From the IMG/VR virus record IMGVR_UViG_3300027883_000013, positions 1 to 32,261 of that record: DNA of 32,261 nt. One strand, written 5' to 3'. The position numbers and the translations under genes are program-made. Origin of the DNA: a virus. Positions 11,701-29,781 of the stretch are shown piece by piece (positions within the stretch are counted from its first letter, which is position 1; each line of letters opens with the position of its first letter). The notes under the pieces were generated by a model, which saw only the letters and a program-made list of their open reading frames with translations, was not told the DNA's origin and ran no database searches.

Positions 11701-14700
11701 GTAGTAACTACTATTTCCGAAATCTAGTCTATTAAATCTAGAAGTTGAAGCAGGGTCTGCGTAATATCCAGTATCGGTATAATCATAGAAGATTGGGGCT
11801 CTCATTGAGCCATATGTAATCAAGTTTGAACTATAATCTAATAGTAATCTTTCTTGAGGTAAATCAGCAGCAGTACCAGAAACACCAGTTCCTGATTTAA
11901 CACCAATTACAAAATCACTTCGTTCAGAACCAGGGGTATCTTTATATTTACCACCAATCCAAATATGAGGTGCAGTATCATAATTAGTAACACCACTATA
12001 ATTTAATAATCCATTAATTGCAATACCAGCATAATAAGGTGCAGCTGTACCTGTTCTTGTACTAGATGGACCTATAACCATACTATATGTATTATTATCC
12101 ATTTGAGTACTACCAGCGGTGTATGATGAAACTCTTAATCTACCACCTGCGTTATTTGTAGCTTGTACTTGTTTATCACTTAAATTTAGTCTATTGAAAC
12201 GAGATTGACTGGCAAAGTTTCCAAAATAATCAATATCATCGGAATCATAAAAGATTGGTGCTCTTGATGATGTAGATGAGTATGTATTACCTGAAGTATC
12301 TACTCTGAATCTATAACTTGTACCAATAGTAAATTGTAGATTACCACCCGAGTTTGCATTGTTATCAGGTGATTCATATATTTTCCAACCACTACCACCT
12401 AACCATTCAATACCTTCACTAGAACCAGGGTCATTTATTGTAATATGATTAACGTTACTTAAAGTACCATTATTCATACTAATATTCAACATCTGAGATG
12501 TTCCTGCTGGGTCTACCCATCTTCCAGTATCATTTCTATCATAGAAAATTTCAGCATTTAATCTACCTAACGTAAATTGTGCAAATGAAGATGATGAACC
12601 AGCATTCCAAATCCAATGAGTTGGTGTTCCACCAAGTGCTGCACGATAGTTAATATACATTGATGTTGAACCACCAAATAACATTTCGTTACCACCTGAT
12701 TTAAATGATAGATAACTACCATTCGAATCTATATAATTATTTGTATTATCTAAATAAACTCTTGCGAATTGAGGAGAATCAGATGTACGAACATTTTGGT
12801 TCATATTATAAGCATATGGTTGAGATACACTATCTAATACCTGTCTCCAACTATCCCAAGTTGTAGCACCAGTCCCTAACCTACTCCATAATCTACCATT
12901 AGCAGTATATGAAATCTGAATTGGATATCCTCCACTTAAATCAGAACCACCACCATAACTTCTCCAATGCATTTGTCCGTTATACGAACCACCATCACTC
13001 AATCCATTGGTTGCATTACTTTTGAAATCAAAGTAAACACCCTTTTCTTTACTATTTGGTAAATCATTTGTACCTCTAGTATCATTTGAATCAACTGCCT
13101 CTGCTCTATCAGCAGTACCACTTACATTTCCTACAAAATTACCAGCAGTTACCTGATTAAATTCAACATCATCGGATGTACGAACATTTTGGTTCATTGC
13201 GTATAACTCATTATCACCATGTCCAGTATTAAGGAAGGTTGAGTTTATACCACCACTAAATGTTGCTTCACCTGTTTTGTTAATCTCTAATAATGATTGT
13301 GCTGCATATTCAGCCTGTCCACCACTTGAATGATATCCAATTTGATAATTAGCAAATCCACCACTATATCGTAAACCACTAAACCATTCTTGTCCACTAT
13401 AAGATACATCAGTAAATAAAGTACCAATTGCTCTACCTTCATAACCACTCATATTAATCATAGCAGTTGCGGCAGGAGAACCAGCCGTATTAGTTGCTAT
13501 AATATTTAAAGAAGTTCCAGTGTTTCCACTATCACCAACTGTTAAATTATCAAATGTAGGTGAATCGGTTGTACGAACATTTTGGTTCATATTATAAACC
13601 TCAGTTGCACCTTGTCCAGTATTAATAGTACCAATATTAACTAAGTTACGAGATGTATCAATTACCTCTGTACCATTTAGTTTATATCCAAATACTGCAT
13701 TTACACCACCATCATCTAAGATTTGGAAGTGTATTTTGTTTCCATCTTCTGGTTCGTAGAAATCTAATCCTTCAGGTGTAGCTTTAATAGCCATATCAAT
13801 TCCAGTATCCGAAGAACCATTGAAAAAGATTGTTGGATTTGCTACTCCACTTAAATAAAGATTATTTGATTCTAAACCATCATCTGCAAACCATCTATCA
13901 GCTGATTCATCCCAAAAGAATTTTTTAGTTGCTGATGAACCTCTTAATACTTCAATACCACCATCCTCTGAAGGAGTACCAGTTGTAAAGTTTGAATTAA
14001 GAGTTATAATATTATCAGCCAACTTAATTGTTTCTGTATTGACTGTTGTTTCTGTACCTGTGACTATTAAATCACCAGTTATTGTTAATGTCGTACCATC
14101 AAAAGTAAGATTACTTTCAACAGTTGCGTTTGGTGCTGAACCATTAAGTGTAATTAATCCATTATCAGTTGTACCAGTTAAAGATAACACTCCAGAAGAA
14201 CCAGATGTTCCACTCGTCCCAGATGTTCCACTCGTTCCAGAAGTTCCACTTGAACCTCCACTCCCTGCAGTACCATCAGTACCATCTATTCCAGATGTTC
14301 CACCAGAACCACTTGTACCACCACTACCAGCAGTACCATCAGTACCACTTGTACCGCTTGTACCACTTGTACCAGCAGAACCGCTTGTACCTTGTTCACC
14401 ATCTTCACCTTGTTCTCCACTCGTACCACCAGAACCTGAAGTTCCTCCACTACCAGCACTACCAGCAGTACCAGCAGTACCACTTGTTCCACTTGTTCCA
14501 CTTGTTCCGCTTGAACCACCAGAACCACTTGAACCACCAGAACCAGATGTACCTCCACTTCCAGATGTACCTCCACTACCAGCAGTACCATCACCACCAC
14601 CAGCACCTGTTATACCAGATGAACCACCAGAACCACTTGTTCCACCAGTTCCACTTGAACCTCCACTTCCGGCAGTACCATCAGTTCCATCTGCTCCAGA

Positions 14701-16209
14701 TGTTCCGCTTGTTCCACTTGAACCACCAGAACCTGCTGTACCATCTATACCATCTCCTCCTCCTACACCAGATGAACCACCAGAACCACTTGTTCCACCA
14801 GAACCACTTGTACCACCAGAACCACTTGTTCCACTACTTCCTGATGTTCCAGAAGTACCAGATGTACCATCTTCACCATCACCACCATCTTCACCATCAG
14901 TTCCATCTACACCATCAGTACCGTCTACCCCATCATTACCAGATGTACCACTTGTACCAGATGTTCCACCACTACCAGAAGAACCTCCACTTCCAGAAGT
15001 TCCACTTGAACCCCCGCTTCCAGATGTACCTCCACTTCCAGATGTACCACTTGAACCACCAGACCCAGAACTTCCACCAGAACCGCTTGTTCCACTTGAA
15101 CCACCACTTCCAGATGTTCCACCACTTCCAGAAGTTCCACCAGAACCAGAAGTTCCAGAAGTTCCACCAGAACCAGATGTTCCAGATGAACCAGATACAC
15201 CGCTTGAACCAGATGTACCACCAGAACCGCTTGAACCTCCACTACCAGAAGTACCAGAAGTACCAGAAGTACCACTTGTTCCACTTGTACCAGAAGTTCC
15301 ACTTGTTCCAGATGTACCAGCAGTACCAGCTGCAGGTTCCCATTCTGAACCAGTGTATCTAAATATGTTAGTATCGGTTGAGTTGTAATATAATTGTCCA
15401 AGTTGACCACCAGCAGGTTCTGAACTAAATACTGGAATTACTATCGAATCTTTGATTAGTAATGAACCTGTAAATTGATGTGTATCGGTTGATTCATCAC
15501 CAAATACATTCGAACCAGATGCATAAATTACCGATGATGATATAAATGTTGTTAATAATTCTTGTGAAGTTATTCTACCTGTTACTGATAAGTTATTGCC
15601 AACACTTAAATCGTTATCAATTGTTAAATCATTACCAATTGTTAAATCATTTTGTATATCAGCAGAACCGGTTACTGTTAAATCGGTTCCTACTTGTGCA
15701 GTTGCTTTGAATATACTACTACCAGTTACGATAAGATAATCTCTTATAGTCACACCAGCTTCTACTCTTAATCCACCATCGGGTGAAATTATAGCTTCAA
15801 TTGAACCTGATTTTAATCTATCGATATCACCTAATGCATCAGCAGGTATATTATATAATCCACCACCATCACCTTTATATAAAGATGCTGATAATTCACC
15901 GATTATATTTGTATCTACATTTACTTCGAATGAAGTTCCATTTAAAACTGATGCGGTAGCTGAACCAACAGCCAATCTACCAATATCACCAGTAAGTGCG
16001 GTTGTTGGGATATTATTTAAATCCGAACCATCTCCTCTGAAAGAACCCGTATATGATGATGCCGTTATTCCACCTTCGACATTCAAAGACGTATTAATAT
16101 CAACCGATGCGGTTGATATATTTAATTGTTCTACACCTTGAACGTCAATCGAAAGTAAACTTTGACTGACTTGATTTATTCCATTTGGATTCTTTCCGCC
16201 GTATTTCAT
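5731..16209 (-). CDS. Giant tail fibre, 3492 aa, with collagen-like tract, Tyr-Asp repeats and S74 self-cleaving chaperone
   Basis: One open frame of 10.5 kb starting at ATG 16209 (GAGG 3 nt before it). Order of parts: residues 1-125, two GDG..L.NIP units; ~210-250, the FISSSVIYASGSN...TDTHQFTGS module also found in the other fibre; ~293-673, a Gly-X-Y tract of GTS/GSS/GSG triplets without proline; ~715-885, a TETTVNTETIKLADN module; three MNQNVRTSD segments; a pyocin-knob-like segment (~1030-1125, ending TTWDSWRQVL); 17 Tyr-Asp repeats (~1215-3245) separated by varied globular inserts; a second knob-like segment (~3105-3220). The C-terminus carries SDMRLKD...GVSAQDVKSVLPE...VDYDRLTPLLVNAI, an S74 intramolecular chaperone, then a coiled coil. 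Ser3370 and Lys3375 match the S74 catalytic spacing, so cleavage before Ser3370 should release ~123 residues after trimer folding. Role: host adsorption fibre. Receptor unknown. Confidence 0.93.
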   Translation of the reverse strand: MKYGGKNPNGINQVSQSLLSIDVQGVEQLNISTASVDINTSLNVEGGITASSYTGSFRGDGSDLNNIPTTALTGDIGRLAVGSATASVLNGTSFEVNVDTNIIGELSASLYKGDGGGLYNIPADALGDIDRLKSGSIEAIISPDGGLRVEAGVTIRDYLIVTGSSIFKATAQVGTDLTVTGSADIQNDLTIGNDLTIDNDLSVGNNLSVTGRITSQELLTTFISSSVIYASGSNVFGDESTDTHQFTGSLLIKDSIVIPVFSSEPAGGQLGQLYYNSTDTNIFRYTGSEWEPAAGTAGTSGTSGTSGTSGTSGTSGTSGTSGSGGSSGSGGTSGSSGVSGSSGTSGSGGTSGTSGSGGTSGSGGTSGSGGSSGTSGSGGSSGSGGSSGTSGSGGTSGSGGSSGTSGSGGSSGSGGTSGTSGTSGNDGVDGTDGVDGTDGEDGGDGEDGTSGTSGTSGSSGTSGSGGTSGSGGTSGSGGSSGVGGGDGIDGTAGSGGSSGTSGTSGADGTDGTAGSGGSSGTGGTSGSGGSSGITGAGGGDGTAGSGGTSGSGGTSGSGGSSGSGGSSGTSGTSGTSGTAGTAGSAGSGGTSGSGGTSGEQGEDGEQGTSGSAGTSGTSGTSGTDGTAGSGGTSGSGGTSGIDGTDGTAGSGGSSGTSGTSGTSGTSGTSGSSGVLSLTGTTDNGLITLNGSAPNATVESNLTFDGTTLTITGDLIVTGTETTVNTETIKLADNIITLNSNFTTGTPSEDGGIEVLRGSSATKKFFWDESADRWFADDGLESNNLYLSGVANPTIFFNGSSDTGIDMAIKATPEGLDFYEPEDGNKIHFQILDDGGVNAVFGYKLNGTEVIDTSRNLVNIGTINTGQGATEVYNMNQNVRTTDSPTFDNLTVGDSGNTGTSLNIIATNTAGSPAATAMINMSGYEGRAIGTLFTDVSYSGQEWFSGLRYSGGFANYQIGYHSSGGQAEYAAQSLLEINKTGEATFSGGINSTFLNTGHGDNELYAMNQNVRTSDDVEFNQVTAGNFVGNVSGTADRAEAVDSNDTRGTNDLPNSKEKGVYFDFKSNATNGLSDGGSYNGQMHWRSYGGGSDLSGGYPIQISYTANGRLWSRLGTGATTWDSWRQVLDSVSQPYAYNMNQNVRTSDSPQFARVYLDNTNNYIDSNGSYLSFKSGGNEMLFGGSTSMYINYRAALGGTPTHWIWNAGSSSSFAQFTLGRLNAEIFYDRNDTGRWVDPAGTSQMLNISMNNGTLSNVNHITINDPGSSEGIEWLGGSGWKIYESPDNNANSGGNLQFTIGTSYRFRVDTSGNTYSSTSSRAPIFYDSDDIDYFGNFASQSRFNRLNLSDKQVQATNNAGGRLRVSSYTAGSTQMDNNTYSMVIGPSSTRTGTAAPYYAGIAINGLLNYSGVTNYDTAPHIWIGGKYKDTPGSERSDFVIGVKSGTGVSGTAADLPQERLLLDYSSNLITYGSMRAPIFYDYTDTGYYADPASTSRFNRLDFGNSSYYIHAGSWGMRNTTPSGYIEFGPANTSHAHIYTDRPNFYFNKQLMVLGGSVINQNDIRSKQFYDIDDTGYYFHGASTTQMYRTDINNQLRLEGGAPIYLYTGAGNQRGYLQATDTNDAHLIIATSGGEDISFRDGGLSGTWNMIIRGDGQTLINSRIDSPIYYDRNDTGYYTDPNSTSNQSALQLQSSEPLRFGTTSTALFHHYSDSTPVAFAMRKGGNSFADGSTFGVLNLQRTNHTNGDTNAGASLFFELKDSGGTLREYAGITGRKTTAGASGGQLDFHNYGRNVVASMNSDFFSHTSDVRAPIFYDSNDTNYYLDPNTSGISLNAYGTVRGNYFVGSRYASSGYTVYKGYDNWNHYISIRGYARPGQGKSDAAIAGGHQTSFVEYAEANDTTGWFFMGSQSSSYIQVAKITRSYSQFVGSLRAPLLYDTDNTGYYFDGASTSKWNVSNQDSYHTFNNYGIGVTGTYSASRLQLVFAMGSSYRPNSAGTATSNMYGIGWSHPNAGSLGGANNLTDHGLLIINNGGFRAALSNSLVVTSEVRGSLFRDYNSTGYYVDPANGNIAANFSGGIQMTGNYGVGITGLYTSTRIQTIFNMGTSYKLPNDGNSTSNAYGLYWSHQNAGSKGGANNLASHGIIILEAGNYKGSWGGGRIVTTEEVRGTLFRDYNSTGYYVNPAGQSHMNTLTLQGNRIGFINASFDAEIRVSDSNPNGAGAEFIFYGDGGSGNAQLTAEVGNFYNQVRTGIVYDYNNAGYYLDPHSTSNLNNLTLQGTLTLNGDVNLGDDFTVGSLKTVAINTTIAASGNQARRFEIARISMDYNDWNGTGTFEVELHENYYGRGTVKKYQVFWGYSNAYQVRLVDANIYGNNHFRVVIGSPVTISGDIRYVPVYAEARYYTQCKAIVRTTRDVTYTDSTPNRSWAYINKSPGAQNIGDFGTADRIIYKTEADIAADIFYDANNTGYYGNFASTSYMNDVRANIFYERENTAYYFGSSQGDARMRNVRFNSVDIENGATIESVNNNGRIYLGGNLHIDSYNGNDIYLNYYSGRRTRTFYSSNREAWRSDTDGIVYAFNQHRSPIYYDYDNSGYYSNPAGASNFNTSIRATEIYARNWFRNDNSGEGLYNQATGMHWYSDSSSRFRLYSGSSTTSQIILTTSGNSVRGYLYATNSNEIGLLDAGGSWAIRHQNDNGTYFYSDNSTLEFRVGRDTVTGNYGTVQTSSTRGGWGGYSINGNWTFMHDHSNAAGIYNDIENEWAILMYRNSYVELMYNGTYQLRTQSYGVYMRDQVRASIFYDHNTGYYFNGDGNSRLSTAHFIGSQGRYTLMTGPEVTYTNGSTSVYNDSNRYSMLVNAPYYPHLYINAYARNGNTTHGAVLSMMGGLTAGGYRKWNIGIANTNPNELSIGHYDNNQNPHYGVGVGWSYPAKWWIDTGGNSFASNSFRAPTFYDSNDTAYYANPNSTSNFNDLRSNDLRNRQAVSTNTTYGIYFANNRSSAYGIYRESGGWSYRYPDLRIAFHTGIKFGANSNYNGMRFYNDYNMATQVMSVNNATDPLGANNVYVNNSLQAASSLRAPIIYDSNSTAYFFNGASAHSTSFEGVSNRTMAYINKPGTSRNNAAYYRARPRQTGDVNYWTGAMGWGRQDMNVVATWGSGFIDSWSNPGNQPSGTSHWVGMQAFHGSMSNTQNYGWQMVGGPISNLRFRSTWSGWRSWRTIPVLDENNGNGGAMYAGIYYDSNSTGYYCNPASTSQLRYVLANDWFRAQGSTGFYFQDRGYGMRSVADEGGQYGTVSTYGSINGWEGWSMNGRSLLMHNNSSSTGLYNDVNNEWLCEAIHNSHFYIHYNGSWKARTESWGLRINDNLYAEGNVIAYYSDMRLKDKEGDIENALDKVGKLNGFYYRNNKEANMIGWRGTELQVGVSAQDVKSVLPEIVHPAPKAERLGYDYMTVDYDRLTPLLVNAINEQNDIVKSQKEEIEYLKSELSELKEMMKELLKK
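5830..6110 (-). other. S74 peptidase / intramolecular chaperone domain
   Basis: Residues ~3367-3460 of the fibre. Ser3370 begins SDMRLKD, with Lys3375 five positions on, matching the Ser/Lys dyad known from endosialidase-type chaperones. Downstream hallmarks are LNGFYYR, GVSAQDV, LPEIV, YMTVDYDRLTPLLV and a C-terminal coiled coil. Confidence 0.9.
6470..12560 (-). repeat. Seventeen-copy Tyr-Asp fibre repeat
   Basis: A recurring ~22-residue motif, consensus AxIFYDxNDTGYYxDPxSTS, at roughly 70-200 residue intervals across two thirds of the fibre. Strong copies lie near 11800, 11230, 10790, 9470 and 7370. Degenerate copies include the one near 12560 (TGRW in place of TGYY) and the one near 12250 (IDYF). 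The inserts between copies differ in sequence and length, so the repeat probably marks conserved shaft joints between variable globular modules. Confidence 0.9.
9665..10340 (-). repeat. Tandem duplication of a ~110-residue fibre module
   Basis: Two adjacent units (10340-10020 and 9995-9665) align end to end: YGIGVTGTYSASRLQ with YGVGITGLYTSTRIQ; MYGIGWSHPNAGSLGGANN with AYGLYWSHQNAGSKGGANN; then HGLLI/HGIII, and VRG.LFRDYNSTGYYV in both. Confidence 0.88.
14191..15332 (-). repeat. Collagen-like Gly-X-Y tract of the S74 fibre
   Basis: About 380 residues of Gly in every third position, with Thr, Ser, Gly, Asp, Glu and Ala in X and Y and no proline. The middle carries acidic triplets (GVDGTDGEDGGDGEDG). 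The DNA is built from 9-nt words with mixed synonymous codons. Long frames on the other strand here are by-products of this composition. Confidence 0.95.
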
Positions 16210-17408: not shown

Positions 17409-18332
17409 TTATTTAAATGTTGCTGGTATTGAACCAAAATTAGTTAAACCACTACAAAAAGCAAAACAATCCGTACCAATTGGAATTGGTGTTCTTTCAA
17501 ATATTTCATCACCATTAGCATCTTCTGGAGTTATACCTGTTAATAAGTTTGATGTAGTTGCCATATTAAATGCATTGGCAAATGTTGTTACTTGTTGGTT
17601 ACCATTAAAAAATTCATTTGGTATTCCAACCACCTTTCTACAGTTTCTAAAAACTGATTCAAAGTTTACTACCAATGGGTTATTATCAAATAACCCAATT
17701 GGTATTGTTGTTAAATTTAACAATGCGTTAAATGTACCAGAAAAAGATGTAACACTTGGATTATTATCAAATAATCCACTTGGTATTGATGTGATTCCTG
17801 TACAAAATACAAATGTGTTAACGAATGAATTTACATTTGATGCATAATCAAACAACCCAGTTGGTATAATAGTAATACCAGTTTGTCTAAATGTAGAGTT
17901 AAATCGTTTTACAGTATTTAAACCATCATTTAATATTGCGTTATTAGACCCATCTGCAGGGATTGTTGTTAAATTACCACATCCATAGAAATCAATTTCT
18001 TCAAATTGAACTACACCCCAATCATCAATTGATTTGTATAAATTTTTATATGATGGATTATTACCTACACTAAAACCTGGACAATATCCACTAACTATAA
18101 TTTGATAAGTACCAGCTGATGTATATGTGTGAAATCTTGCAGATGCTAACCCTTGTATAATAGTTGAATCTACACTACCATCTCCCCAGCTTACTGTTAA
18201 GTTAGGCTGTACACCACTAGGTGTAGTAATTGGTAACTCAAACTGAGTACCATTAGATGTTGTTTGTATTGTAAATTTAAAAGGTCTCACTTGTCCTGCT
18301 TCTATTGATAATAATCTTCTTGCTATACTCAT
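17409..18332 (-). CDS. PKD-domain plus leucine-rich-repeat (BspA/DUF285-like) surface protein
   Basis: A 307-residue protein starting at ATG 18332, 13 bp after the stop of the 3811-aa fibre. Residues ~20-82 form a PKD-like domain (LTVSWGDGSV, then FHTYTSAGTYQIIVSG). Residues ~110-305 are leucine-rich repeats of the BspA/DUF285 type with an exact 27-residue period: IPTGLFD at 156, IPSGLFD at 183, IPIGLFD at 210 and IPNEFFN at 237, each followed by V..F...F..C..(L/V). Weaker copies flank these (IPADG at 124; IPIGTDCFAF at 283). Such proteins are best known as bacterial surface adhesins. Between two fibre genes, a tip adhesin or receptor-binding role is the obvious guess. There is no signal peptide, as expected for a virion protein. 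Domain calls firm; function inferred. Confidence 0.88.
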   Translation of the reverse strand: MSIARRLLSIEAGQVRPFKFTIQTTSNGTQFELPITTPSGVQPNLTVSWGDGSVDSTIIQGLASARFHTYTSAGTYQIIVSGYCPGFSVGNNPSYKNLYKSIDDWGVVQFEEIDFYGCGNLTTIPADGSNNAILNDGLNTVKRFNSTFRQTGITIIPTGLFDYASNVNSFVNTFVFCTGITSIPSGLFDNNPSVTSFSGTFNALLNLTTIPIGLFDNNPLVVNFESVFRNCRKVVGIPNEFFNGNQQVTTFANAFNMATTSNLLTGITPEDANGDEIFERTPIPIGTDCFAFCSGLTNFGSIPATFK

Positions 18333-18345
18333 AATTCATAACTCA

Positions 18346-21300
18346 TTAACTTATATTATTTGCACTTAGGAATCCATAGTAAGTACTCCCTCCATCATAA
18401 GTATAGAATACTAATATATCTTTTCCATTTGCCGTTAGTGTTGGTGCTACTCCATTTGCCCATTGTATTATTGATGGCCAATTAGTAGTTGCAGTTCCAC
18501 CACTACCATCTTCCATTACCAATGTGAATCCAATTGCACGAGGGCCTGTTGGAGCGTTTGTAATACTAATTGTAATTGTTCCAGTTCTATTAATTCTAAA
18601 ATTATTAGCCGTAGATAAATCTATTGTTGTACCACCAGCTGAGTTTCCTATGTTACTATAATTCTCATGGAATCTAGTAGAGAATGTTGCATCACTTACA
18701 TCTAAATCTCCAGTTACATTTAATAAACCTCCATCAAATGTTAGGTTTGTTTCCGCAGTTGCAGTTCCATCACCATCCATAGTAAGAACTCTATCCGTAC
18801 CATCATCAGTAACTTCTAATAATCCACTTGAACCAGATGAACCACTTGAACCAGATGAACCAGTTTCTCCAGAAGTTCCCGTTGAACCACTTGAACCAGC
18901 AGTACCAGTTGAACCGGATGAACCACTACTACCAAATAAAGTACCATCTAATCCAGAAGTACCAGATGAACCAGCTGAAGAACTTTCTCCAGAAGTACCA
19001 GCAGAACCACTTACTCCACTTGTACCAGAAGTACCTGAAGAACCAAATAAAGTACCATCTTGTCCAGACGAACCAGAAGTACCAGATGTACCATTTGAAC
19101 CACTTTGCCCACTCGTACCGGTTGAACCACTTGTACCAGAAGTACCACTACTACCGAATAAAGTACCATCTTGCCCACTTGTACCACTAAGACCAGATGT
19201 ACCTGCTGAACCAGTCTCTCCAGATGTCCCGGTTATTCCAGAAGTACCACTTATTCCAGAAGTACCACTACTACCAAATAAAGTACCATCTTGTCCACTT
19301 GTTCCAGCAGTACCACTTACACCACTACTTCCACTCGTACCAGTTGAACCACTTGTTCCAGCAGTACCACTACTACCAAATAAAGTTCCATCTTGTCCGC
19401 TTGTACCACTCACACCAGATGTACCATCTTGTCCACTAATACCAGATGTTCCATCAGTACCTAATCCAGAAGTACCAGAAGTTCCTGAAGTTCCTTGAGA
19501 ACCAAAGAATGTCCCATCCCGTCCATCAGTTCCACTTGCTCCACTTGTTCCTGCTGAACCAGTTTCTCCAGAAGAACCAGATGTACCTGAAGAACCAACT
19601 CCACTTGTTCCACTTGTTCCAGAAGTACCAGATGAACCGAATAAAGTACCATCTTGTCCAGATGTACCTGATGAACCAGAAGAACCAGAAGAACCAGAAG
19701 TACCAGCACCAGAAGTACCAGAAGTACCACTTATACCAGAAGAACCAAAGAAAGTTCCATCTTGTCCACTTGTTCCTGAAGTTCCATCCGTACCACTTAA
19801 ACCACTACTACCAGAAGTTCCTGCTCCAGATGTACCAGAAGTACCACTTATACCAGAAGAACCAAAGAATGTTCCATCTTGCCCAGATGTACCAGATGTA
19901 CCAGATGTACCATTTGAACCACTACTACCAGCAGTACCAGTTGAACCAGAAGTTCCACTTATTCCAGATGTACCGCTACTACCGAAGAATGTCCCATCCT
20001 GTCCACTTATACCAGAAGTTCCAGCTGAACCAGAAGAACCAGTAACTCCACTTGTTCCATTCGTTCCAGAAGAACCACTTGTCCCAGATGAACCAGTTGA
20101 ACCAGAAGTTCCATTAGTACCACTTGTACCACTTATACCAGATGTACCAAAAAATGTTCCATCGATTCCATCAGTTCCACTTGTACCACTTATACCACTT
20201 GAACCAGCAGTTCCAGTTGAACCACTAACTCCACTTGTACCAGACGTACCAGAACTTCCAAAGAACGTTCCATCTTGTCCAGAAGAACCACTTGTCCCAG
20301 ATGTTCCCGCTGAACCAGATGAACCAGATGAACCAGCAGTTCCAGTTGAACCACTACTACCACTTGTTCCACTACTACCACTACTTCCCTCAGCAGATGT
20401 TCCAGATGAACCAGATGTACCTGATGAACCAGCAGTACCACTTACACCACTACTACCGCTTGTTCCAGCAGTTCCACTACTTCCTTCGGCAGATGTTCCA
20501 GAGGAACCACTCGTTCCAGAAGAACCAGAAGAACCTGATGTTCCACTACTTCCACTTGTACCATGTGAACCAGTATCACCTTTATCACCAACGGCAACTA
20601 AAGATACAACTACATCATCACTATTTGTAAAAGGAGTATCTGATGAGAAACCTGTATTTGATAAATCACTAAGAGTCCACCAATCACCATTATCGGTTAA
20701 TTCACCTATTGCAAATAATAAGTATTCATCGGTATTGAATTTTTTAGCAATTCTTATATGTGCTTTTACTGCCGAAGTAACGGAATCCATCGTTTCCATA
20801 AACGATTGAATACTTCCTCCATCATCATCAGTTTCACTAATGTAAATTGCAGTACCTATATTTTGTGAAGAGTTATTTATTCTAAGTCTACCAGCTGATG
20901 GTTGTGAATTTCCTATTGCTGATGTAAATGTGTAATCGAATGATGCTCCACCGAAGTTACCATCTTTACCACTTGTACCACTACTTCCTTCTGCAGATGT
21001 TCCACTAGAACCACTTGTACCAGAAGTACCACTTGTTCCACTTGAACCAGATGTTCCACTACTACCGCTTGTTCCAGCAGTTCCACTACTTCCAGATGTT
21101 CCAGTTGTTCCGCTCGTACCAGAAGAACCACTTGTTCCGTTTGTACCACTTGTTCCGCTTGTTCCAGAAGTACCACTACTTCCAGATGTTCCCTCTGAAC
21201 CAGTTGTTCCGCTTGTTCCGCTTGTTCCAGAAGTACCAGCTGAACCACCACTACCAGATGTTCCAGAAGTTCCACTTGTTCCAGATGTACCTGAAGTTCC

Positions 21301-24300
21301 ACTTGTCCCAGAAGTTCCACTACTTCCAGATGTTCCGCTTGTTCCGGCTGAACCAGAAGTTCCATTGGTACCTGAAGTTCCAGATGTACCAGCTGAACCA
21401 CTACTTCCTTCTGCTCCACTCGTACCGCTTGTTCCAGAAGTACCATTCGTACCGGTTGAACCACTACTACCACTACTTCCACTCGTACCAGAAGTACCAG
21501 CTGAACCTGAAGAACCTTGTTCTCCACTCGTTCCACTACTACCACTACTTCCACTACTTCCGCTTGAACCAGAAGAACCAGAACTTCCACTCGTTCCAGA
21601 AGTACCAGATGTACCGCTTGAGCCAGAAGAACCTGATGTTCCACTACTACCGCTTGAACCAGATGAACCAGATGAACCAGATGAACCAGATGTTCCAGAA
21701 GTACCAGAAGTACCACTACTTCCACTTGTTCCAGAAGTACCAGATGTTCCAGATGAACCACTACTACCACCAGAACCAGAAGTTCCAGATGTACCAGCTG
21801 AACCAGAAGAACCAGAAGAACCTGATGTTCCAGAAGTTCCAGATGTTCCGTATTTATCAACTATCTCAATAGTACCTATCATTGATGAATGATTAGTACA
21901 TTGGTAAACTATACTATTGGGAGCATTTTCAGGTACTCTATATTCTAATAATGTTGTTGTAGCTGAATTCCCATTCTCTGGGTCGTTATTTGTTGTACCA
22001 GGTACCACATTAGTATTACCAGTTGCCAATCTTAATGCGAATGGATGACTTGATGTAACTCCATCTAAATCAAAGTAATAAAGTTCGCCTCTTACTAATG
22101 TTAACGTTGGGAAGTTACCAGCATATCCATCAAAAGAAAAATTAAATCCTTCATTTATTACACTATATAATCTCCCACCTTCTCTACCAGAAGTTCCAGA
22201 AGAACCACTTGTTCCAGATGTACCAGATGTACCAGATGTACCAGATGTACCACTTGAACCTGATGAACCAGAACTTCCACTTGAACCTGATGAACCACTT
22301 GTACCACTACTTCCAGCTGAACCAGAAGTACCAGATGTTCCACTTGTTCCAGAAGAACCAGATGAACCAGAAGTTCCTGATGTTCCTGTTGTTCCACTCG
22401 TACCACTTGAACCAGATGTACCAGAAGTACCTCCACTACCAGATGTACCAGATGTACCAGATGAACCAGATGTTCCACTACTACCACTTGTACCAGATGT
22501 TCCAGAACTTCCACTTGTACCACTCGTACCACTTGAACCAGATGTTCCTGAAGAACCACTTGTCCCAGAAGAACCACTTGTCCCAGAAGTTCCAGACGAA
22601 CCACTACTTCCACTTGAACCACCAGTACCAGATGTACCACCAGTACCAGATGTACCACTTACAGCAGTTACATCTCTTTTTTCTAATCTATTTGTACTTT
22701 CGTTTATTACTAATACTGTATCTGAAGTACCTACTTCTAATCCTATAAATTGACTACTTCCCGTTACTACTAAACTACCACTTACTTCAAATCTTCCAAC
22801 GAATGAACCAGTACCATTATTTGGTAAGAAATTTTCTCCTACGAAATCACCAGCGTTTAATGCAAATGAAGCAGTTGCCGCATAAGATGCTGAAAGAACT
22901 GTCATTGATGCCGTTTGGTCATTTCTTACATAATCTTCAGCTGATACAGCGTTTATAGCATAAGATGCAGAAACAGCGTATGATGCTGAAAGTACAGTCA
23001 TTGATGCCGTTTGGTCAGTTCTTACAAAATTTGAAGTATTAAAATCACCAGCGTTTACAGCGAATGAAGCAGTTTCAGCATAAGATGCTGAAAGAACTGT
23101 CATCGATGCCGTTTGGTCATTCTTTACATATTGTGATAAGTTACCTAACTCAGCAAGTGATGCTGAATCAAATCCTAATAAAGATGATGCCGTTTCAGCG
23201 TTTTGTGCACGTATTGCATATGATGCTGAATTAACTAACCCTACTACATCATCTCCTTCTACAAATCCTGCTAATCTACCACCAGTTCCTATTACAGCTT
23301 GTCCACTTGTCAATCCACTAAAGGTTACTCTAACCGATGAACTATTAATAGATTCAATAGCTTGTGGAATAATTTGTCCATTTGAACCAGTTTCATAAAT
23401 TTGAACTACTGGATAATCAATAGCGAAATTATGTTGGAATGTTATTTGAGTTACATCTGAGAATGGGAATACTGCCGTATCACCAAATTGTGTTACAGGT
23501 CTAAATTTGTTTGCATCCGCATCAAATATTAAAATATCTAAATCATCAGGTACATCTATACCAACGTTTTCACCCTGATATGAACCTACAAATGATGATG
23601 TAATTCTTGGTGAGAATACTTCATCAGTTACAGTTATTCTAGATGCAGTTACGTCATTTTGGAAAGTTACATCTCCGAAAAATGTTGAACCACTATCTAT
23701 TGACCTTACTACAAATCCATCATTAGGATTAACCGATGCGGTTACTGAACCACTAAGTATTCTACTTTGGTCTAAATCTACGATTGCATCAGCCGGAATA
23801 TTAAATAATCCCTCACCACTACCACTAAAGAATCCACTTCCAGATGGTATTGTTATATTTCCACTTACAAATAAACTACCTGTAAATTTAGAACCAAGAG
23901 TTGGAGAGTATACTGTAAATCCTTGAGTTGGTTCAACAGATGCACTTATACCACCACTAATAATAAGAGGTAATTCTAAATCTTCTAATGCTTCAGCTGG
24001 GATGTTAAATAAACCCCCACCATCTCCAACGAATAATGTACCACTAATTGAAGTATTTGCAACGAATCCTTTATTTGGAGAAATAGATGCAGTTGCCGAA
24101 CCAGATACTATTCTAGGTAATTCTAAATCTTCAATTGCATCTAATGGAATATTATATAATCCACCACCATCTCCTTGATATAAAGATGCAGTTATTGATT
24201 GTGAAACATGAAGTGAACCACTTAGTTCTACTTTAACTGAACCTGAATTTATATTAGGGTCTAAGTTTTCTACTCTGAAAAACCCTAATGGGTCAACTGA

Positions 24301-27300
24301 TGCAGTTACTGAACCAGTAAATATTTTTGATGAATCAATTGCTAAGTTAGCAATATCAATGTTTGTAATTCCACTACCATCACCAGTAATAACTCCACCT
24401 ACATTTAATGATTCTGAAATATTTACCGAACCACTTAAAGATGTTAATATACTTCCAGTAATTCCAGTATCAAATACTTTAAATTCACCAGTTTCAGAAA
24501 TAGATGCGGTATATGAACCACTTTCTAATGTATTTAATGTAAGTGCTAAATTAGCTATATCAATATCAGTTAAACCACTACCATCACCTTCAAATCTACC
24601 ACCACCACCAACACTTATTGAACCAGATGTTACCAATGAACCAGTTATTATAGAACCACTAATCGGTGCAGTTACTATGAAAGTATCACCACTTGCAACC
24701 GATGCTGTTGCCGAACCACTTGATATAAGAGGAGCAGCTGCTGCTTGTACGTTTTCTAAGTTTGAACCATCACCAAAATAAACTCCACTATATGAACCAC
24801 TAAATGAACCACTTAATACTAAATCACTACTTCTATTTTCGAACCTACTTGATGTTGCCGAATATACTAAGATATCATTATTAGATGCAGTTGCTATTTG
24901 AACATCATGTAAATCACTTATATGAGAACCTAATTGAGGTCTTACTAAAATTTGTATATTATTACCATTTATTCTCTCAACAAGACCAATAGTTGATTTT
25001 AAGTTAGGAGCTTCAGGTTTAACATTTGTTAAACCACCAGGTCTTTCTGAATCTGGATATAGAATATCTCCCTCTGCCCAAGCAGAACCAGTATATTTTA
25101 AACCAGCATCTTCTAAATGAGTTTTGTTAACATCCCTAACCATACCAAACCAAGTAGCAAATCCTTCTTGATTATTATCAATGTTTTCCGTTAAAACACC
25201 TATTAATAGTGATTCTAAATGAGTACCATCTGATATTGATTTTACAACTCTAATACGATTACCTTGTGATGGGTTATTAGGGTCCACCATTACCAATGTA
25301 CCATTAATCAAATCTTCACCTGATTTATTTACTACCTTTGGATAATACAGTTCTTGTCCCATTTGTAGAGATGCACTACCACCAGACATTCCTAAATCTA
25401 ACGTACCTTCAGTTTCATTCCATTTTAGCCTACCAGGTTGAGATGGGAGTGTATTTTCACCAGTAACAAAATCTACAACTGATGAAGTTAAATAAGATGA
25501 TGTTACAAATGGTGATGATAATTTGTCTGCAGATGATATTCCCTTAACATCAAATGTTCCAAATATGTCAGTATTACCACGTAACACATTTTGTGGGATA
25601 ATTGGTATCTCTTCTAATATTTCTATATCACCACCATATGATGATGATGGGTCTGAATAATAATATAATCTTTTTGGTGAAGTACCATCAATTTCTATTT
25701 TAAGATATGCACCACTACTACCAGCTGTTCCGTTAGTTGTTACAGATGTGGTATATTCAGAACCTTCATTATGAATACCATCTATTGTTTGAGATAGTTT
25801 TATCGGATTGTTTGCATTTGATGAATCTGATAAATCAAAGTGATATGTATCACCTACTATAAATTTAATTTTTTCTGGTGTAGACCCATTTATTAAAAAT
25901 CCACTACCATCAATAGTTACTGATTGTGTAATAGGTATAGTTTCTAACTCCACAATAGAATTAGATACATATAATCCACCAGTTACATTTAAATCACCTT
26001 CAATTGATGATGTTGTATTTACCTTGAATCCATACTCAGGATCAGTTGAAGCAGTTACACTACCACTAGCTATAAATGTTCTTTGTTCTACATCAGTAGC
26101 AAGTGCTGATAGAGGTATATCAAATAAATCTCTACCACTACCACTAAACGAACCACTAAATTCATTAGCCTTAACTATATTAGATTCAATAGTATTACTA
26201 ACTAACATAGAACCAGTTACTTCAACAGTATCGTTAATTATTGTTTTAGTTATTGGAAAAGAAAGTACTTTTTGGATTTGCCCACCCATTCCAGAGTGAT
26301 TCAAACACCAATAATAAAGTGTATCAGGCGTATCAAAGTTTATTGCTATACTAACTTCAGAACCATCCGTTCCAGCATCAATACTTCCAGTATCAACACT
26401 ACCAGTAAATGGAGTTCCACTATTATGTGTACCATGTTCTGTTGTTGAAAATCTTAATGGATGTGTAGCATTTGTAGAATCCGATTGATTAAATGTGTAT
26501 GTACTACCACTTACTAAATAAAGTAATGGTTGTCTTATTCCATCTATTTCATATTTGTTACCATCATCAGTAGAAATTACCTTTACTACTTTTTCTAAAT
26601 TATCACTACCATAAGGTGAAGATGCGGATACAAATAAACTACCACTAATAGTTACACTATCTTCAAACCTACCAGTTGAGTTTACTTCAAATCCTTTAAT
26701 TGGGTCAACTGATGCGGTTACCGAACCACTTACAATTCTAAATGCTTCTTCTGTTATTGCAGAACGAGGTATATCAAATAAATCTCTACCACTACCACTA
26801 AATGCAGAACCACTTTGTACTTTAACATCTCCGAAAAATACCGAACCACTATCTATTGAAGTTACTGTAAATTGGTTGTTAAATGTTGAAGCAGTTATAC
26901 TACCACTTGCAATTAATGGTGAGGTTTCTGCTAGTGCCGATAGTGGTATATCAAATAAGTTAGCTCCACTACCACTAAAAGATGAACTAACATTAAGTTG
27001 TACATTTCCACTTACAAATAAAGAACCACTTAATTCGGTTGTTACTGAACCAGTTCCTTGTACTCTAAAGAATCCAGCCTCATCTAAAGATGCTGTTACT
27101 GAACCTGTTGATATTTGTGGTGCATCTTCTGAAAGTGCTGATTGTGGTATATTGAATAATTCAGAACCATCTCCTACAAATCCACTTGATGATATTTTAG
27201 CACTTGCTGATACGTTACCAAATATTTGAGTTTCTCCAAATATTTTTTGTACATCACTACCACTATCATCACCTAATATATTTGAACCAGATGAATATAT

Positions 27301-29781
27301 AACTGAAGAAGATATAAAGTTTACAAATAATTCTTCAGCCGTAATTCTACCACTTACACTTAAATCACCTTGGATTGATGATGAAGTATTTACTTCGAAT
27401 CCTTTATCAGGTGATATTGATGCAGTTGCTGAACCACTTGCTATTTTAAATGCATCTTCTGATAATGCTGATAATGGAATATTATTTAACTCAGAACCAT
27501 CTCCTGCAAATGAACCACTAAATGAACTACTTATTTGGTCTACTATAATTAATGGAACATCTAGCGATTCTAATATAGAAACACTACCACTAAATTCAGA
27601 TTTTACCGAACCTGTTCCAAATACTTTGAATATACCAGCAGGTGATACCGATGCACTTACAGAACCAGTTGTGATTAAATTAGATAATAATGCATCTTCA
27701 ACTAATGCTGAACGAGGTATATTACTTAAACCCTCACCACTACCACTAAAGAATCCACTTGATGTTGGTATTTCTATACTACCTACAAATAAAGAACCAC
27801 TTTCCTCAGAGGTTACTTTAAATTGATTATCTTCTGTTGATGCAGTTACACTACCACTTGCTATAAAAACAGCTTCTCTTGTTACTAAGGCAGTTATAGA
27901 ATCAGTTGCATCATCTGATAATGCTGTAAATGGTATATTAAATAAATTCTCTCCACTACCAGAGTAAGATGAACCACTATTTACTTCAATATTTCCACTT
28001 ACAAAAAGAGAACCACTTAGTTCAGTTGTTACTGAGCCAGTTGATTGTACTCTAAAGAATCCATCAGTTGAAACCGATGCGGTTACAGAACCTGTTTGAA
28101 TTATATTAGAAATAAGTGCATCTTCAGTTAATGCTGAACGGGGTATATTAAATAACTCCTCACCACTACCACTAAAGAATGAACCAGATGATAAAAATAT
28201 CGAACCAGTAAAAGTAGAACCACTTTCTATCGAATTCACTACAAATCCTTCATCAGGTGTTACCGATGCAGTTACCGAACCACTTCTTATAAATGTTGAT
28301 AAAAGTGCATCTTCGGTTAGAGCTGAACGGGGTATATCAAATAAATCCTCACCACTACCACTATATTTTGAACCAGATGATAATGTTATATTTCCAAAGA
28401 AAGTTGAACCACTACCCTCAGATATTACAACAAACCCATCTTCATTTGAAACAGATGCAGTTACATCACCAGATTGTATTGTAGTTGATACTTCAACTTC
28501 TTCAGCTAATGCAGATAGAGGGATATTAAATAAATTTTCACCACTACCACTAAAGAATGAACCACTACTTAGGAATACCGAACCACTAAATGTTGAACCA
28601 CTATCTATTGAGGTTATTACAAACCCAGTCTCAGGATCAACAGAGGCAGTTACTGCTCCACTAATAATTAAATTCGTTTCTAATGCATCTTCTGTTAATG
28701 CTGAACGAGGTATATTAAATAAGTTCTCACCACTACCACTAAATGAAGAACCACTATTAAGATTTACATTTCCACTAACTAATAACGAACCACTTAGTTC
28801 AGTTGTTACTGAACCAGTTCCAAATACTCTGAAGAATCCATCAGTTGAAAGTGAAGCTGTTACTGAACCTGTTGTTATTAAATTTGAAAGTAGTGCATCT
28901 TCAGTTAATGCACTCTTTGGTATATTGAATAAGTTTTCACCACTACCACTAAAAGCAGAACCACTATTAAGTTGTAGGTTACCACTAATAAAAGTAGAAC
29001 CACTTAATTCGGTTGTTACTGAACCAGTTCCAAATACTCTGAAGAATCCATCAGTTGAAACCGATGCGGTTACAGAACCCGTTGTAATTAAGTTTGAAAG
29101 TAGTGCATCATCAGTTAATGCACTTTTTGGTATATTAAATAAATTCTCACCACTACCACTAAAGGCAGAACCACTATTAAGTTGTAAGTTACCACTAATA
29201 AAAGTAGAACCACTTAGATTTGTTTCACCAAATACATCTAATGAACCAGTTATCTTAACCGAACCAGTGAATTCTTGTGTATCGGTTGAAAAATCACCAA
29301 ATTTGTTTGAACCTGAAGAAAATATTATTGAAGATGAAATAATTTCTACAATTAATTCTCTTGCTACAATTCTATTATCAACTATTAAATCACCAGTAAC
29401 TCTAACATCACCAGTAACATCCACATCCCCATCAAATGATGAAGATACGTTTACTAAGAATCCAGTGTTTGGTGAAATTGATGCCGATGCAGAACCTGAT
29501 AATAATCTTACTGCTTCTGGTAGGTTATTTAATTGAGAACCATCTCCAGCAAATGAACCACTAAAAGAACCTGTTACTTGGTCTAATTGTAAAGTAGTAA
29601 CGAATAAACGATTACCATCTGCATCAGAGGCAACAAGCGCAATTGAACCAGATGTAAGTGAACCACTTATAGGAACACCTAAGTTTGGTTCAGCTTCATT
29701 TAATCGTAGATATTCGTACCTATCTTCGGAAACATTAATAGGTTTTACTACTTTAACCTTCCCGCTTAATAATTGGCTCAT
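18346..29781 (-). CDS. Giant tail fibre, 3811 aa, with cupredoxin-like domains and three collagen-like tracts
   Basis: One open frame of 11.4 kb from ATG 29781 (weak ribosome site). Order: residues ~60-2060, about 20 GDG/GSG..L.(N/D)IP units, interrupted by a cupredoxin-like domain (~1060-1173), a degenerate copy of it (~1285-1388) and a beta module with GQELYYPKVVNKSG...NGTLVMV (~1440-1620). Next, a FQHNFAIDYPVVQIYETG module (~2080-2170) and three DQTASMTVLSASYA repeats (~2220-2310). Then Gly-X-Y tract I (~2374-2535), a second intact cupredoxin-like domain (~2536-2643), tract II (~2644-2943), a FDYTFTSAIGN beta module (~2945-3062) and tract III (~3063-3652) with 12 DGT(F/L)FG motifs. The C-terminus ends in a beta domain (TTNWPSIIQWANG, ILVFYTYDGGSTYYGF) that I know from other phage fibre ends. 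No S74 domain is present. Likely a trimeric adsorption fibre; receptor unknown. Confidence 0.92.
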   Translation of the reverse strand: MSQLLSGKVKVVKPINVSEDRYEYLRLNEAEPNLGVPISGSLTSGSIALVASDADGNRLFVTTLQLDQVTGSFSGSFAGDGSQLNNLPEAVRLLSGSASASISPNTGFLVNVSSSFDGDVDVTGDVRVTGDLIVDNRIVARELIVEIISSSIIFSSGSNKFGDFSTDTQEFTGSVKITGSLDVFGETNLSGSTFISGNLQLNSGSAFSGSGENLFNIPKSALTDDALLSNLITTGSVTASVSTDGFFRVFGTGSVTTELSGSTFISGNLQLNSGSAFSGSGENLFNIPKSALTEDALLSNLITTGSVTASLSTDGFFRVFGTGSVTTELSGSLLVSGNVNLNSGSSFSGSGENLFNIPRSALTEDALETNLIISGAVTASVDPETGFVITSIDSGSTFSGSVFLSSGSFFSGSGENLFNIPLSALAEEVEVSTTIQSGDVTASVSNEDGFVVISEGSGSTFFGNITLSSGSKYSGSGEDLFDIPRSALTEDALLSTFIRSGSVTASVTPDEGFVVNSIESGSTFTGSIFLSSGSFFSGSGEELFNIPRSALTEDALISNIIQTGSVTASVSTDGFFRVQSTGSVTTELSGSLFVSGNIEVNSGSSYSGSGENLFNIPFTALSDDATDSITALVTREAVFIASGSVTASTEDNQFKVTSEESGSLFVGSIEIPTSSGFFSGSGEGLSNIPRSALVEDALLSNLITTGSVSASVSPAGIFKVFGTGSVKSEFSGSVSILESLDVPLIIVDQISSSFSGSFAGDGSELNNIPLSALSEDAFKIASGSATASISPDKGFEVNTSSSIQGDLSVSGRITAEELFVNFISSSVIYSSGSNILGDDSGSDVQKIFGETQIFGNVSASAKISSSGFVGDGSELFNIPQSALSEDAPQISTGSVTASLDEAGFFRVQGTGSVTTELSGSLFVSGNVQLNVSSSFSGSGANLFDIPLSALAETSPLIASGSITASTFNNQFTVTSIDSGSVFFGDVKVQSGSAFSGSGRDLFDIPRSAITEEAFRIVSGSVTASVDPIKGFEVNSTGRFEDSVTISGSLFVSASSPYGSDNLEKVVKVISTDDGNKYEIDGIRQPLLYLVSGSTYTFNQSDSTNATHPLRFSTTEHGTHNSGTPFTGSVDTGSIDAGTDGSEVSIAINFDTPDTLYYWCLNHSGMGGQIQKVLSFPITKTIINDTVEVTGSMLVSNTIESNIVKANEFSGSFSGSGRDLFDIPLSALATDVEQRTFIASGSVTASTDPEYGFKVNTTSSIEGDLNVTGGLYVSNSIVELETIPITQSVTIDGSGFLINGSTPEKIKFIVGDTYHFDLSDSSNANNPIKLSQTIDGIHNEGSEYTTSVTTNGTAGSSGAYLKIEIDGTSPKRLYYYSDPSSSYGGDIEILEEIPIIPQNVLRGNTDIFGTFDVKGISSADKLSSPFVTSSYLTSSVVDFVTGENTLPSQPGRLKWNETEGTLDLGMSGGSASLQMGQELYYPKVVNKSGEDLINGTLVMVDPNNPSQGNRIRVVKSISDGTHLESLLIGVLTENIDNNQEGFATWFGMVRDVNKTHLEDAGLKYTGSAWAEGDILYPDSERPGGLTNVKPEAPNLKSTIGLVERINGNNIQILVRPQLGSHISDLHDVQIATASNNDILVYSATSSRFENRSSDLVLSGSFSGSYSGVYFGDGSNLENVQAAAAPLISSGSATASVASGDTFIVTAPISGSIITGSLVTSGSISVGGGGRFEGDGSGLTDIDIANLALTLNTLESGSYTASISETGEFKVFDTGITGSILTSLSGSVNISESLNVGGVITGDGSGITNIDIANLAIDSSKIFTGSVTASVDPLGFFRVENLDPNINSGSVKVELSGSLHVSQSITASLYQGDGGGLYNIPLDAIEDLELPRIVSGSATASISPNKGFVANTSISGTLFVGDGGGLFNIPAEALEDLELPLIISGGISASVEPTQGFTVYSPTLGSKFTGSLFVSGNITIPSGSGFFSGSGEGLFNIPADAIVDLDQSRILSGSVTASVNPNDGFVVRSIDSGSTFFGDVTFQNDVTASRITVTDEVFSPRITSSFVGSYQGENVGIDVPDDLDILIFDADANKFRPVTQFGDTAVFPFSDVTQITFQHNFAIDYPVVQIYETGSNGQIIPQAIESINSSSVRVTFSGLTSGQAVIGTGGRLAGFVEGDDVVGLVNSASYAIRAQNAETASSLLGFDSASLAELGNLSQYVKNDQTASMTVLSASYAETASFAVNAGDFNTSNFVRTDQTASMTVLSASYAVSASYAINAVSAEDYVRNDQTASMTVLSASYAATASFALNAGDFVGENFLPNNGTGSFVGRFEVSGSLVVTGSSQFIGLEVGTSDTVLVINESTNRLEKRDVTAVSGTSGTGGTSGTGGSSGSSGSSGTSGTSGSSGTSGSSGTSGSSGTSGTSGSSGTSGTSGSSGTSGSSGTSGTSGSGGTSGTSGSSGTSGTTGTSGTSGSSGSSGTSGTSGTSGSAGSSGTSGSSGSSGSSGSSGSSGTSGTSGTSGTSGTSGSSGTSGREGGRLYSVINEGFNFSFDGYAGNFPTLTLVRGELYYFDLDGVTSSHPFALRLATGNTNVVPGTTNNDPENGNSATTTLLEYRVPENAPNSIVYQCTNHSSMIGTIEIVDKYGTSGTSGTSGSSGSSGSAGTSGTSGSGGSSGSSGTSGTSGTSGSSGTSGTSGTSGSSGSSGSSGSSGSSGTSGSSGSSGTSGTSGTSGSSGSSGSSGSSGSSGSSGTSGEQGSSGSAGTSGTSGSSGSSGSTGTNGTSGTSGTSGAEGSSGSAGTSGTSGTNGTSGSAGTSGTSGSSGTSGTSGTSGTSGTSGTSGTSGSGGSAGTSGTSGTSGTTGSEGTSGSSGTSGTSGTSGTNGTSGSSGTSGTTGTSGSSGTAGTSGSSGTSGSSGTSGTSGTSGSSGTSAEGSSGTSGKDGNFGGASFDYTFTSAIGNSQPSAGRLRINNSSQNIGTAIYISETDDDGGSIQSFMETMDSVTSAVKAHIRIAKKFNTDEYLLFAIGELTDNGDWWTLSDLSNTGFSSDTPFTNSDDVVVSLVAVGDKGDTGSHGTSGSSGTSGSSGSSGTSGSSGTSAEGSSGTAGTSGSSGVSGTAGSSGTSGSSGTSAEGSSGSSGTSGSSGSTGTAGSSGSSGSAGTSGTSGSSGQDGTFFGSSGTSGTSGVSGSTGTAGSSGISGTSGTDGIDGTFFGTSGISGTSGTNGTSGSTGSSGTSGSSGTNGTSGVTGSSGSAGTSGISGQDGTFFGSSGTSGISGTSGSTGTAGSSGSNGTSGTSGTSGQDGTFFGSSGISGTSGTSGAGTSGSSGLSGTDGTSGTSGQDGTFFGSSGISGTSGTSGAGTSGSSGSSGSSGTSGQDGTLFGSSGTSGTSGTSGVGSSGTSGSSGETGSAGTSGASGTDGRDGTFFGSQGTSGTSGTSGLGTDGTSGISGQDGTSGVSGTSGQDGTLFGSSGTAGTSGSTGTSGSSGVSGTAGTSGQDGTLFGSSGTSGISGTSGITGTSGETGSAGTSGLSGTSGQDGTLFGSSGTSGTSGSTGTSGQSGSNGTSGTSGSSGQDGTLFGSSGTSGTSGVSGSAGTSGESSSAGSSGTSGLDGTLFGSSGSSGSTGTAGSSGSTGTSGETGSSGSSGSSGSSGLLEVTDDGTDRVLTMDGDGTATAETNLTFDGGLLNVTGDLDVSDATFSTRFHENYSNIGNSAGGTTIDLSTANNFRINRTGTITISITNAPTGPRAIGFTLVMEDGSGGTATTNWPSIIQWANGVAPTLTANGKDILVFYTYDGGSTYYGFLSANNIS
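18826..20595 (-). repeat. Collagen-like tract III with 12 DGT(F/L)FG motifs
   Basis: About 590 residues of G-(T/S)-S triplets. Twelve copies of (Q/I/R/L)DGT(F/L)FG occur every ~36-55 residues; each has Gly-Thr-Phe/Leu-Phe-Gly, one residue more than a triplet. Four units also contain a shortened G-x-G step (GAG, GAG, GVG, GLG). Confidence 0.95.
20951..21850 (-). repeat. Collagen-like tract II
   Basis: About 300 residues of GTS/GSS/GSA triplets with occasional GEQG and GTNG. The regular period is broken near its end by a GTSAEG step (two extra residues); the same step occurs twice more in tract III. Confidence 0.95.
21851..22175 (-). other. Cupredoxin-like domain 2 (intact copper ligand set)
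   Basis: Lies between collagen-like tracts I and II. Ligand-like residues are His2579 (SSHPFAL), Cys2628, His2631 and Met2634 (YQCTNHSSMIG). The C-x2-H-x2-M spacing equals that of amicyanin, with the first His 49 residues earlier. Surrounding strands (LTLVRGELYYFDLD; IVYQ; GTIEIV) fit a cupredoxin fold. Confidence 0.75.
22176..22660 (-). repeat. Collagen-like tract I
   Basis: About 161 residues of GTS/GSS triplets with a few GGT/GTG variants at the start, following VTAVSGTSG and ending at GREGGRLYS. No proline is present. Confidence 0.95.
22860..23130 (-). repeat. Three DQTASMTVLSASYA repeats
   Basis: Three copies about 90-100 nt apart, near 23105, 23005 and 22912, each read as V(K/R)(N/T)DQTASMTVLSASYA followed by Ala/Ser-rich residues. 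The DNA is also well conserved across copies. Ala/Ser-rich linker of this kind is common in phage fibre shafts. Confidence 0.9.
25610..25915 (-). other. Degenerate cupredoxin-like domain (all four ligands replaced)
   Basis: Aligns with the domain at 26260-26600: FIVGDTYHFDLSDSSNANNP matches SGSTYTFNQSDSTNATHP, and YYYSDPSSSYGGDIEI matches YYWCLNHSGMGGQIQK. The ligand positions become Asn1325, Ser1376, Ser1379 and Tyr1382, so copper binding of type 1 should be lost while the fold is kept. Confidence 0.75.
26260..26600 (-). other. Cupredoxin-like domain 1 (intact copper ligand set)
   Basis: Residues ~1060-1173. Ligand-like residues are His1107 (ATHPLRF), Cys1159, His1162 and Met1165 (YYWCLNHSGMGG). 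The C-x2-H-x2-M spacing equals that of amicyanin. The domain begins KYEIDGIRQPLLYLVSGSTY and includes DTLYYW just before the Cys, as in blue copper proteins. Confidence 0.78.

Follow-up and report, generated by a model that had tools for sequence, protein, structure and literature searches.

The window, a 32,261-base record of a marine virus of bacteria, encodes on its minus strand a giant tail fiber open reading frame (P0001; positions 18346 to 29781), 3811 amino acids long in one stop-free frame. The other genes of the record form a T4-type tail module and include those for a tail sheath, a gp19-like tail tube, a T4 baseplate protein, and a tail fiber assembly chaperone; the nearest relatives of the sheath belonged to Microcystis phage Mel-JY01 and to an uncultured phage. 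The fiber is made up of a GS-rich repeat shaft, collagen-like GXX stretches, and three domains with a cupredoxin fold. A second giant fiber ORF (positions 5731 to 16209, 3492 amino acids) combines collagen-like repeats with a Peptidase_S74 endosialidase chaperone close to the C terminus, and a 307-amino-acid ORF adjoining the first fiber (positions 17409 to 18332) gave a weak match to BspA-type leucine-rich repeats.

A domain search of the whole record identified three sites, all within the fiber ORF, on the minus strand. The first (d1; about residues 1063 to 1173, positions 26263 to 26595) retains an intact set of metal ligands: H1107, C1159, H1162, and M1165. The codon for H1107, which lies within the motif THPLRF, occupies positions 26461 to 26463, and the ligand loop C1159-L-N-H1162-S-G-M1165 (C-x2-H-x2-M, an amicyanin-type spacing) spans positions 26287 to 26307, with the codons for C1159, H1162, and M1165 at 26305 to 26307, 26296 to 26298, and 26287 to 26289, respectively. 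Residue numbers and coordinates of these four ligands agreed exactly with those of a preliminary description of the locus; all four lie in the single 3811-residue frame and follow the canonical type 1 order H...C...H..M (two His, one Cys, and one Met). Two further copies had been absent from that description. The second (d2; about residues 1281 to 1390, positions 25612 to 25941) is of the same family and has N, S, S, and Y, not H, C, H, and M, in the ligand columns; the third (d3; about residues 2537 to 2642, positions 21856 to 22173) has all four ligands intact (H2579, C2628, H2631, and M2634). Both d1 and d2 are located in the repeat shaft. A collagen-like GXX run borders d3 on either side, and the nearest named relatives of d3 are gp9-type baseplate proteins. 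The entire fiber contains two Cys residues, both of them the Cys of a C-x2-H-x2-M motif (in d1 and d3), which argues that the motif in this fiber is more than chance. Another histidine, H1119 (positions 26425 to 26427), forms part of a THxxG motif that is widely conserved across the domain family and showed no covariation with the metal ligands. It was ruled out as a fifth ligand, being absent from d3, where the site is intact, and present in d2, where there is none.

The AlphaFold2 model of d1, for which 48 window and locus sequences were supplied, had a mean pLDDT of 93.5 and a pTM of 0.86. Eight strands of at least three residues were present (model residues 7 to 17, 20 to 25, 33 to 36, 40 to 44, 55 to 58, 88 to 92, 100 to 105, and 113 to 118), as in a Greek-key β-sandwich with its 7 to 9 strands. 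H1107 (model residue 53) directly precedes a strand, C1159 (105) is the terminal residue of another, and H1162 (108) and M1165 (111) follow in the next loop. As modeled, this placement of ligands on strands and loops matches the layout of blue-copper proteins, and the four residues would meet in space, judging from the topology and from their coupled inheritance described below. In a Foldseek search against the PDB, the best match to d1 was a nitrite reductase from Hyphomicrobium denitrificans (2dv6; E = 5e-4), and the remaining top matches were mostly cupredoxins, rusticyanin among them. VIA-align likewise placed first the N-terminal cupredoxin domain of 6tfo (Z = 9.8; rmsd 2.4 over 101 residues), with two-domain laccases (Z of about 9) and rusticyanin (Z = 8.9) also matching. 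Structure prediction and fold search, with their cupredoxin top matches and Greek-key sandwich, thus uphold the fold that had been proposed for d1 from its sequence. The model of d2 (pLDDT 83.1) had rusticyanin as its top VIA match (Z = 8.1), from which it follows that the ligand-less copy is predicted to retain the cupredoxin fold. Among BFVD models, d1 had close relatives in structure among cyanophage virion proteins, including one of S-TIM5 (TM score of 0.92, 46% identity). Three BFVD entries from Pithovirus-like and Marseillevirus-like giant viruses (A0A481Z6J5, A0A481Z7Q7, and A0A481YVH3) are also β-sandwiches matching the d1 fold, with TM scores of about 0.7.

At the level of sequence, the tie to known cupredoxins appeared weak through d1 and better through a divergent member of the family. 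A Pfam search with d1 returned no match, and the profile PF00127 (Copper-bind) gave weak matches to 5 of 48 family members (best E = 0.027) and a stronger one to a protein of phage P-HM1 (E = 0.0011; 19.7 bits, below the curated cutoff of 21.2); that cutoff was reached by neither d1, nor the 48 tested members, nor the P-HM1 member. The second domain of the P-HM1 protein is a divergent member of the family (E = 1e-8 against the family profile) and matched plastocyanin 1b3i with an E value of 2e-4. No credible relative was found when the domain-family profile was compared with PDB sequences, and matches in PHROGs were to tail, baseplate, and virion families, in which the domain itself is unnamed. 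When the d1 profile was aligned with cellular PF00127 proteins by hhalign, the Cys loop alone was aligned, at about 1 to 2% probability; because the alignment is confined to this loop, direct sequence homology between d1 and cellular cupredoxins is not claimed here.

Like d1, the cupredoxins of PF00127 (amicyanin, plastocyanin, rusticyanin, and pseudoazurin) combine a Greek-key β-sandwich, as recovered by the fold search, with H-C-H-M ligands, but the phage domain differs from them in being part of a virion fiber or baseplate, in having no known redox partner, and, for d1, in falling below Pfam detection. Amicyanin serves methylamine dehydrogenase as its electron carrier. With ligands at His53, Cys92, His95, and Met98 (PMC12723479), it has the same C-x2-H-x2-M spacing as the d1 loop, and the domain had initially been called amicyanin-like on that basis. 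The spacing stands, but the nearest folds listed were the N-terminal domain of nitrite reductase, laccases, and rusticyanin; amicyanin was absent among the matches listed for d1 by Foldseek and VIA, which is uninformative either way. With the likeness limited to loop length and other folds nearest among those listed, we rejected the amicyanin label and classify the domain among cupredoxin folds that bear a type-1-like site. Its best structural match comes from a three-domain enzyme, the H. denitrificans nitrite reductase (2dv6 and 6tfo), to which the matching N-terminal cupredoxin domain is tethered; identity with d1 is 18 to 19%.

The domain proved widespread in phages. A tblastn search with d1 returned at least 279 phage records, whose hosts, where the organism name tells, were Synechococcus, Prochlorococcus, Pelagibacter, and Methylophilales. 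The carrier genes were annotated as gp9 (baseplate-tail fiber connector), gp7 (baseplate wedge initiator), tail fiber, or virion structural protein; the carriers were tail fibers, gp9, and gp7 of cyanomyoviruses and fibers of pelagiphages and of one Methylophilales phage. Each of 12 named phages searched whole encoded one to six copies. Two scans of viral contigs each yielded at least 600 stretches, nearly all of them true relatives; the query was the family consensus protein in one scan, 15 diverse members being too variable to serve as an alignment, and a ligand-free stretch of the domain (see below) in the other. These results bear out the spread of the motif among marine phage proteins that had earlier been suggested. 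The family consensus had no match among plasmids. Within the phylum sampled, a few proteins of bacterial genomes also carry the domain, three of which (L263, L264, and L268) are possibly cellular, with ligands intact in some. In cyanophage PSS2 (L135; record positions 61960 to 62298), a free-standing ORF of about 112 amino acids consists of the domain alone and has lost the ligands (D-A-T-M). An intact domain of P-SSM2 (L238; record positions near 25553 to 25831) has two additional Cys (SYCVDSVC), which may form a disulfide; such a pair is rare in the family. A search of the openly licensed literature on cupredoxin- or plastocyanin-like proteins in cyanophage, baseplate, tail fiber, and virion structural proteins recovered no description of the domain.

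Across this family, the four ligands were retained or lost jointly. A comparison of 50 domains sharing less than 60% identity and aligned at all four ligand columns found all four ligands in 38, exactly three in none, two in one, one in three, and no ligand in eight. The top six of 325 pair correlations between conserved columns were exactly the six ligand pairs, and 10,000 column shuffles gave at most 28 four-ligand domains, as opposed to the 38 observed; phylogeny was not corrected for in this test, and some low-scoring rows were aligned automatically. Where a domain had kept both the Cys and the second His, no columns other than the four ligands were invariant. As a check on selection, a scan was made with the 50-residue stretch between the ligands, which includes none of the four, and all 79 distinct domains recovered from its best 80 loci (those nearest to the consensus) had the complete set. 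Of the 496 Cys in domain-bearing ORFs, 239, or about half, were ligand Cys; the other 257 were spread over 145,387 residues (0.18%). Orthologues of d2, most of which have lost all four ligands, had NSSY, HTSF, FTSY, FASY, or NSSF in the ligand columns, with HCHM retained in the d1 and d3 copies of those chains. In cyanophage gp7 (L133, L134, and L139), a ligand-less domain comes about 182 residues after an intact one, a pairing also formed by d1 and d2 in the fiber. Such all-or-none inheritance, with its correlated ligand pairs, bears the signature of, and is best accounted for by, a single metal site, and a Met inherited alongside one Cys and two His argues for copper as the metal. Since ligand-less copies retain the fold, the site appears to be retained for more than folding; that retention, seen in d2 and its orthologues despite their incomplete ligand sets, also weakens the earlier alternative, by which the ligands merely stabilize a reused fold.

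On balance, we consider it likely that d1 and d3 are cupredoxin modules of the virion fiber with a type-1-like site, holding one copper each in a structural or adhesive capacity. Because phage tail and baseplate domains retain or lose the four residues jointly, ocean phage particles with intact domains probably carry copper. Folding of phage structural proteins takes place in the cytoplasm, a compartment with very little free copper, so that copper loading of virion domains is not assured; the metal would be acquired after cytoplasmic assembly, from the lysate, seawater, or the host surface. Once bound, copper would pin the His-bearing strand onto the Cys-His-Met loop, and such pinning may yield a rigid, protease-resistant side domain facing the host surface. 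The metal would then have a structural or adhesive role for which electron transfer is unnecessary, with the intact site providing metal-dependent rigidity or surface binding of the side domain in fiber and baseplate alike. The d2 domain and the second gp7 domain would be copies in which the fold was retained and the metal given up. The collagen-like stretches suggest a trimeric fiber, which, if so, would hold six metal ions. A bolder version, which we advance tentatively, is that this cupredoxin family unrecognized by Pfam, borne on the tail fibers and baseplates of cyanophages, pelagiphages, and other phages, supplies several coppers per virion as a standing part of the particle, the metal state being used at host contact.

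Other explanations would dispense with copper. The site might be empty in virions, its Cys, two His, and Met forming a polar packing core that needs no metal, as assembly in a copper-poor cytoplasm and the general ability of apo-cupredoxins to retain their fold would allow. We regard this as unlikely: d2 and its orthologues hold the fold despite lacking the ligand set; single substitutions should be tolerated in a packing core, yet none of the 50 nonredundant domains had exactly three ligands; and free Cys is otherwise avoided in domain-bearing ORFs, as its low non-ligand frequency indicates. Since the choice of copper is itself an inference and each domain offers one free Cys, another metal (e.g., zinc) or Cys chemistry such as an interchain disulfide or adhesive bond might be invoked instead; the Met, coinherited with the Cys and both His residues, fits type 1 copper but neither zinc nor Cys chemistry, making this very improbable.

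Two further proposals accept the metal but assign it a different role. A redox device, in which the site takes or gives an electron at the host surface or in the periplasm and so triggers the fiber or baseplate, would draw on the usual job of known soluble cupredoxins (PMC4059628), but neither a partner protein nor any trace of an electron transfer patch in the sequence speaks for it, and a structural role suffices. Electron transfer by the fiber domains is possible and nothing supports it, and we rank this proposal lowest of all. Alternatively, the loaded domain could act as a copper Trojan horse, recognized by a copper uptake or copper-binding protein of the host surface, or virions could serve as copper ligands in seawater. 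Fiber metal sites have also been discussed for marine phages in the case of iron (the HxH sites of T4 gp37, alterophage R22Y, and the Ferrojan or Trojan Horse proposal; PMC11705849), which makes host contact and seawater ligand roles for copper worth testing, and the named carriers here are phages of marine hosts; those iron sites are octahedral HxH sites in an intertwined fiber, whereas the phage domain is a self-contained H-C-H-M cupredoxin. Such a role is improbable, given that receptor evidence is lacking, that the domain also occurs in gp7 and gp9, baseplate proteins with no need for first receptor contact, and that the carriers infect hosts with very different surfaces.

Blue-copper proteins are known chiefly as electron carriers. 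Cyanophages likewise encode one in plastocyanin (petE; PMC5083919), but petE is a host-derived metabolic electron carrier, whereas the d1-type domain is a structural part of the virion. The copper-bearing structural module favored here lends itself to a concrete test, namely, of copper in virions and of the effect of copper on adsorption or particle stability, with the intact and ligand-less copies within one chain as a ready-made control. In viruses that rank among the most common in the sea, selection apparently keeps an intact copper-type site in structural proteins, and this site may bear on the part played by phages in ocean copper chemistry, in parallel to their debated role in that of iron.
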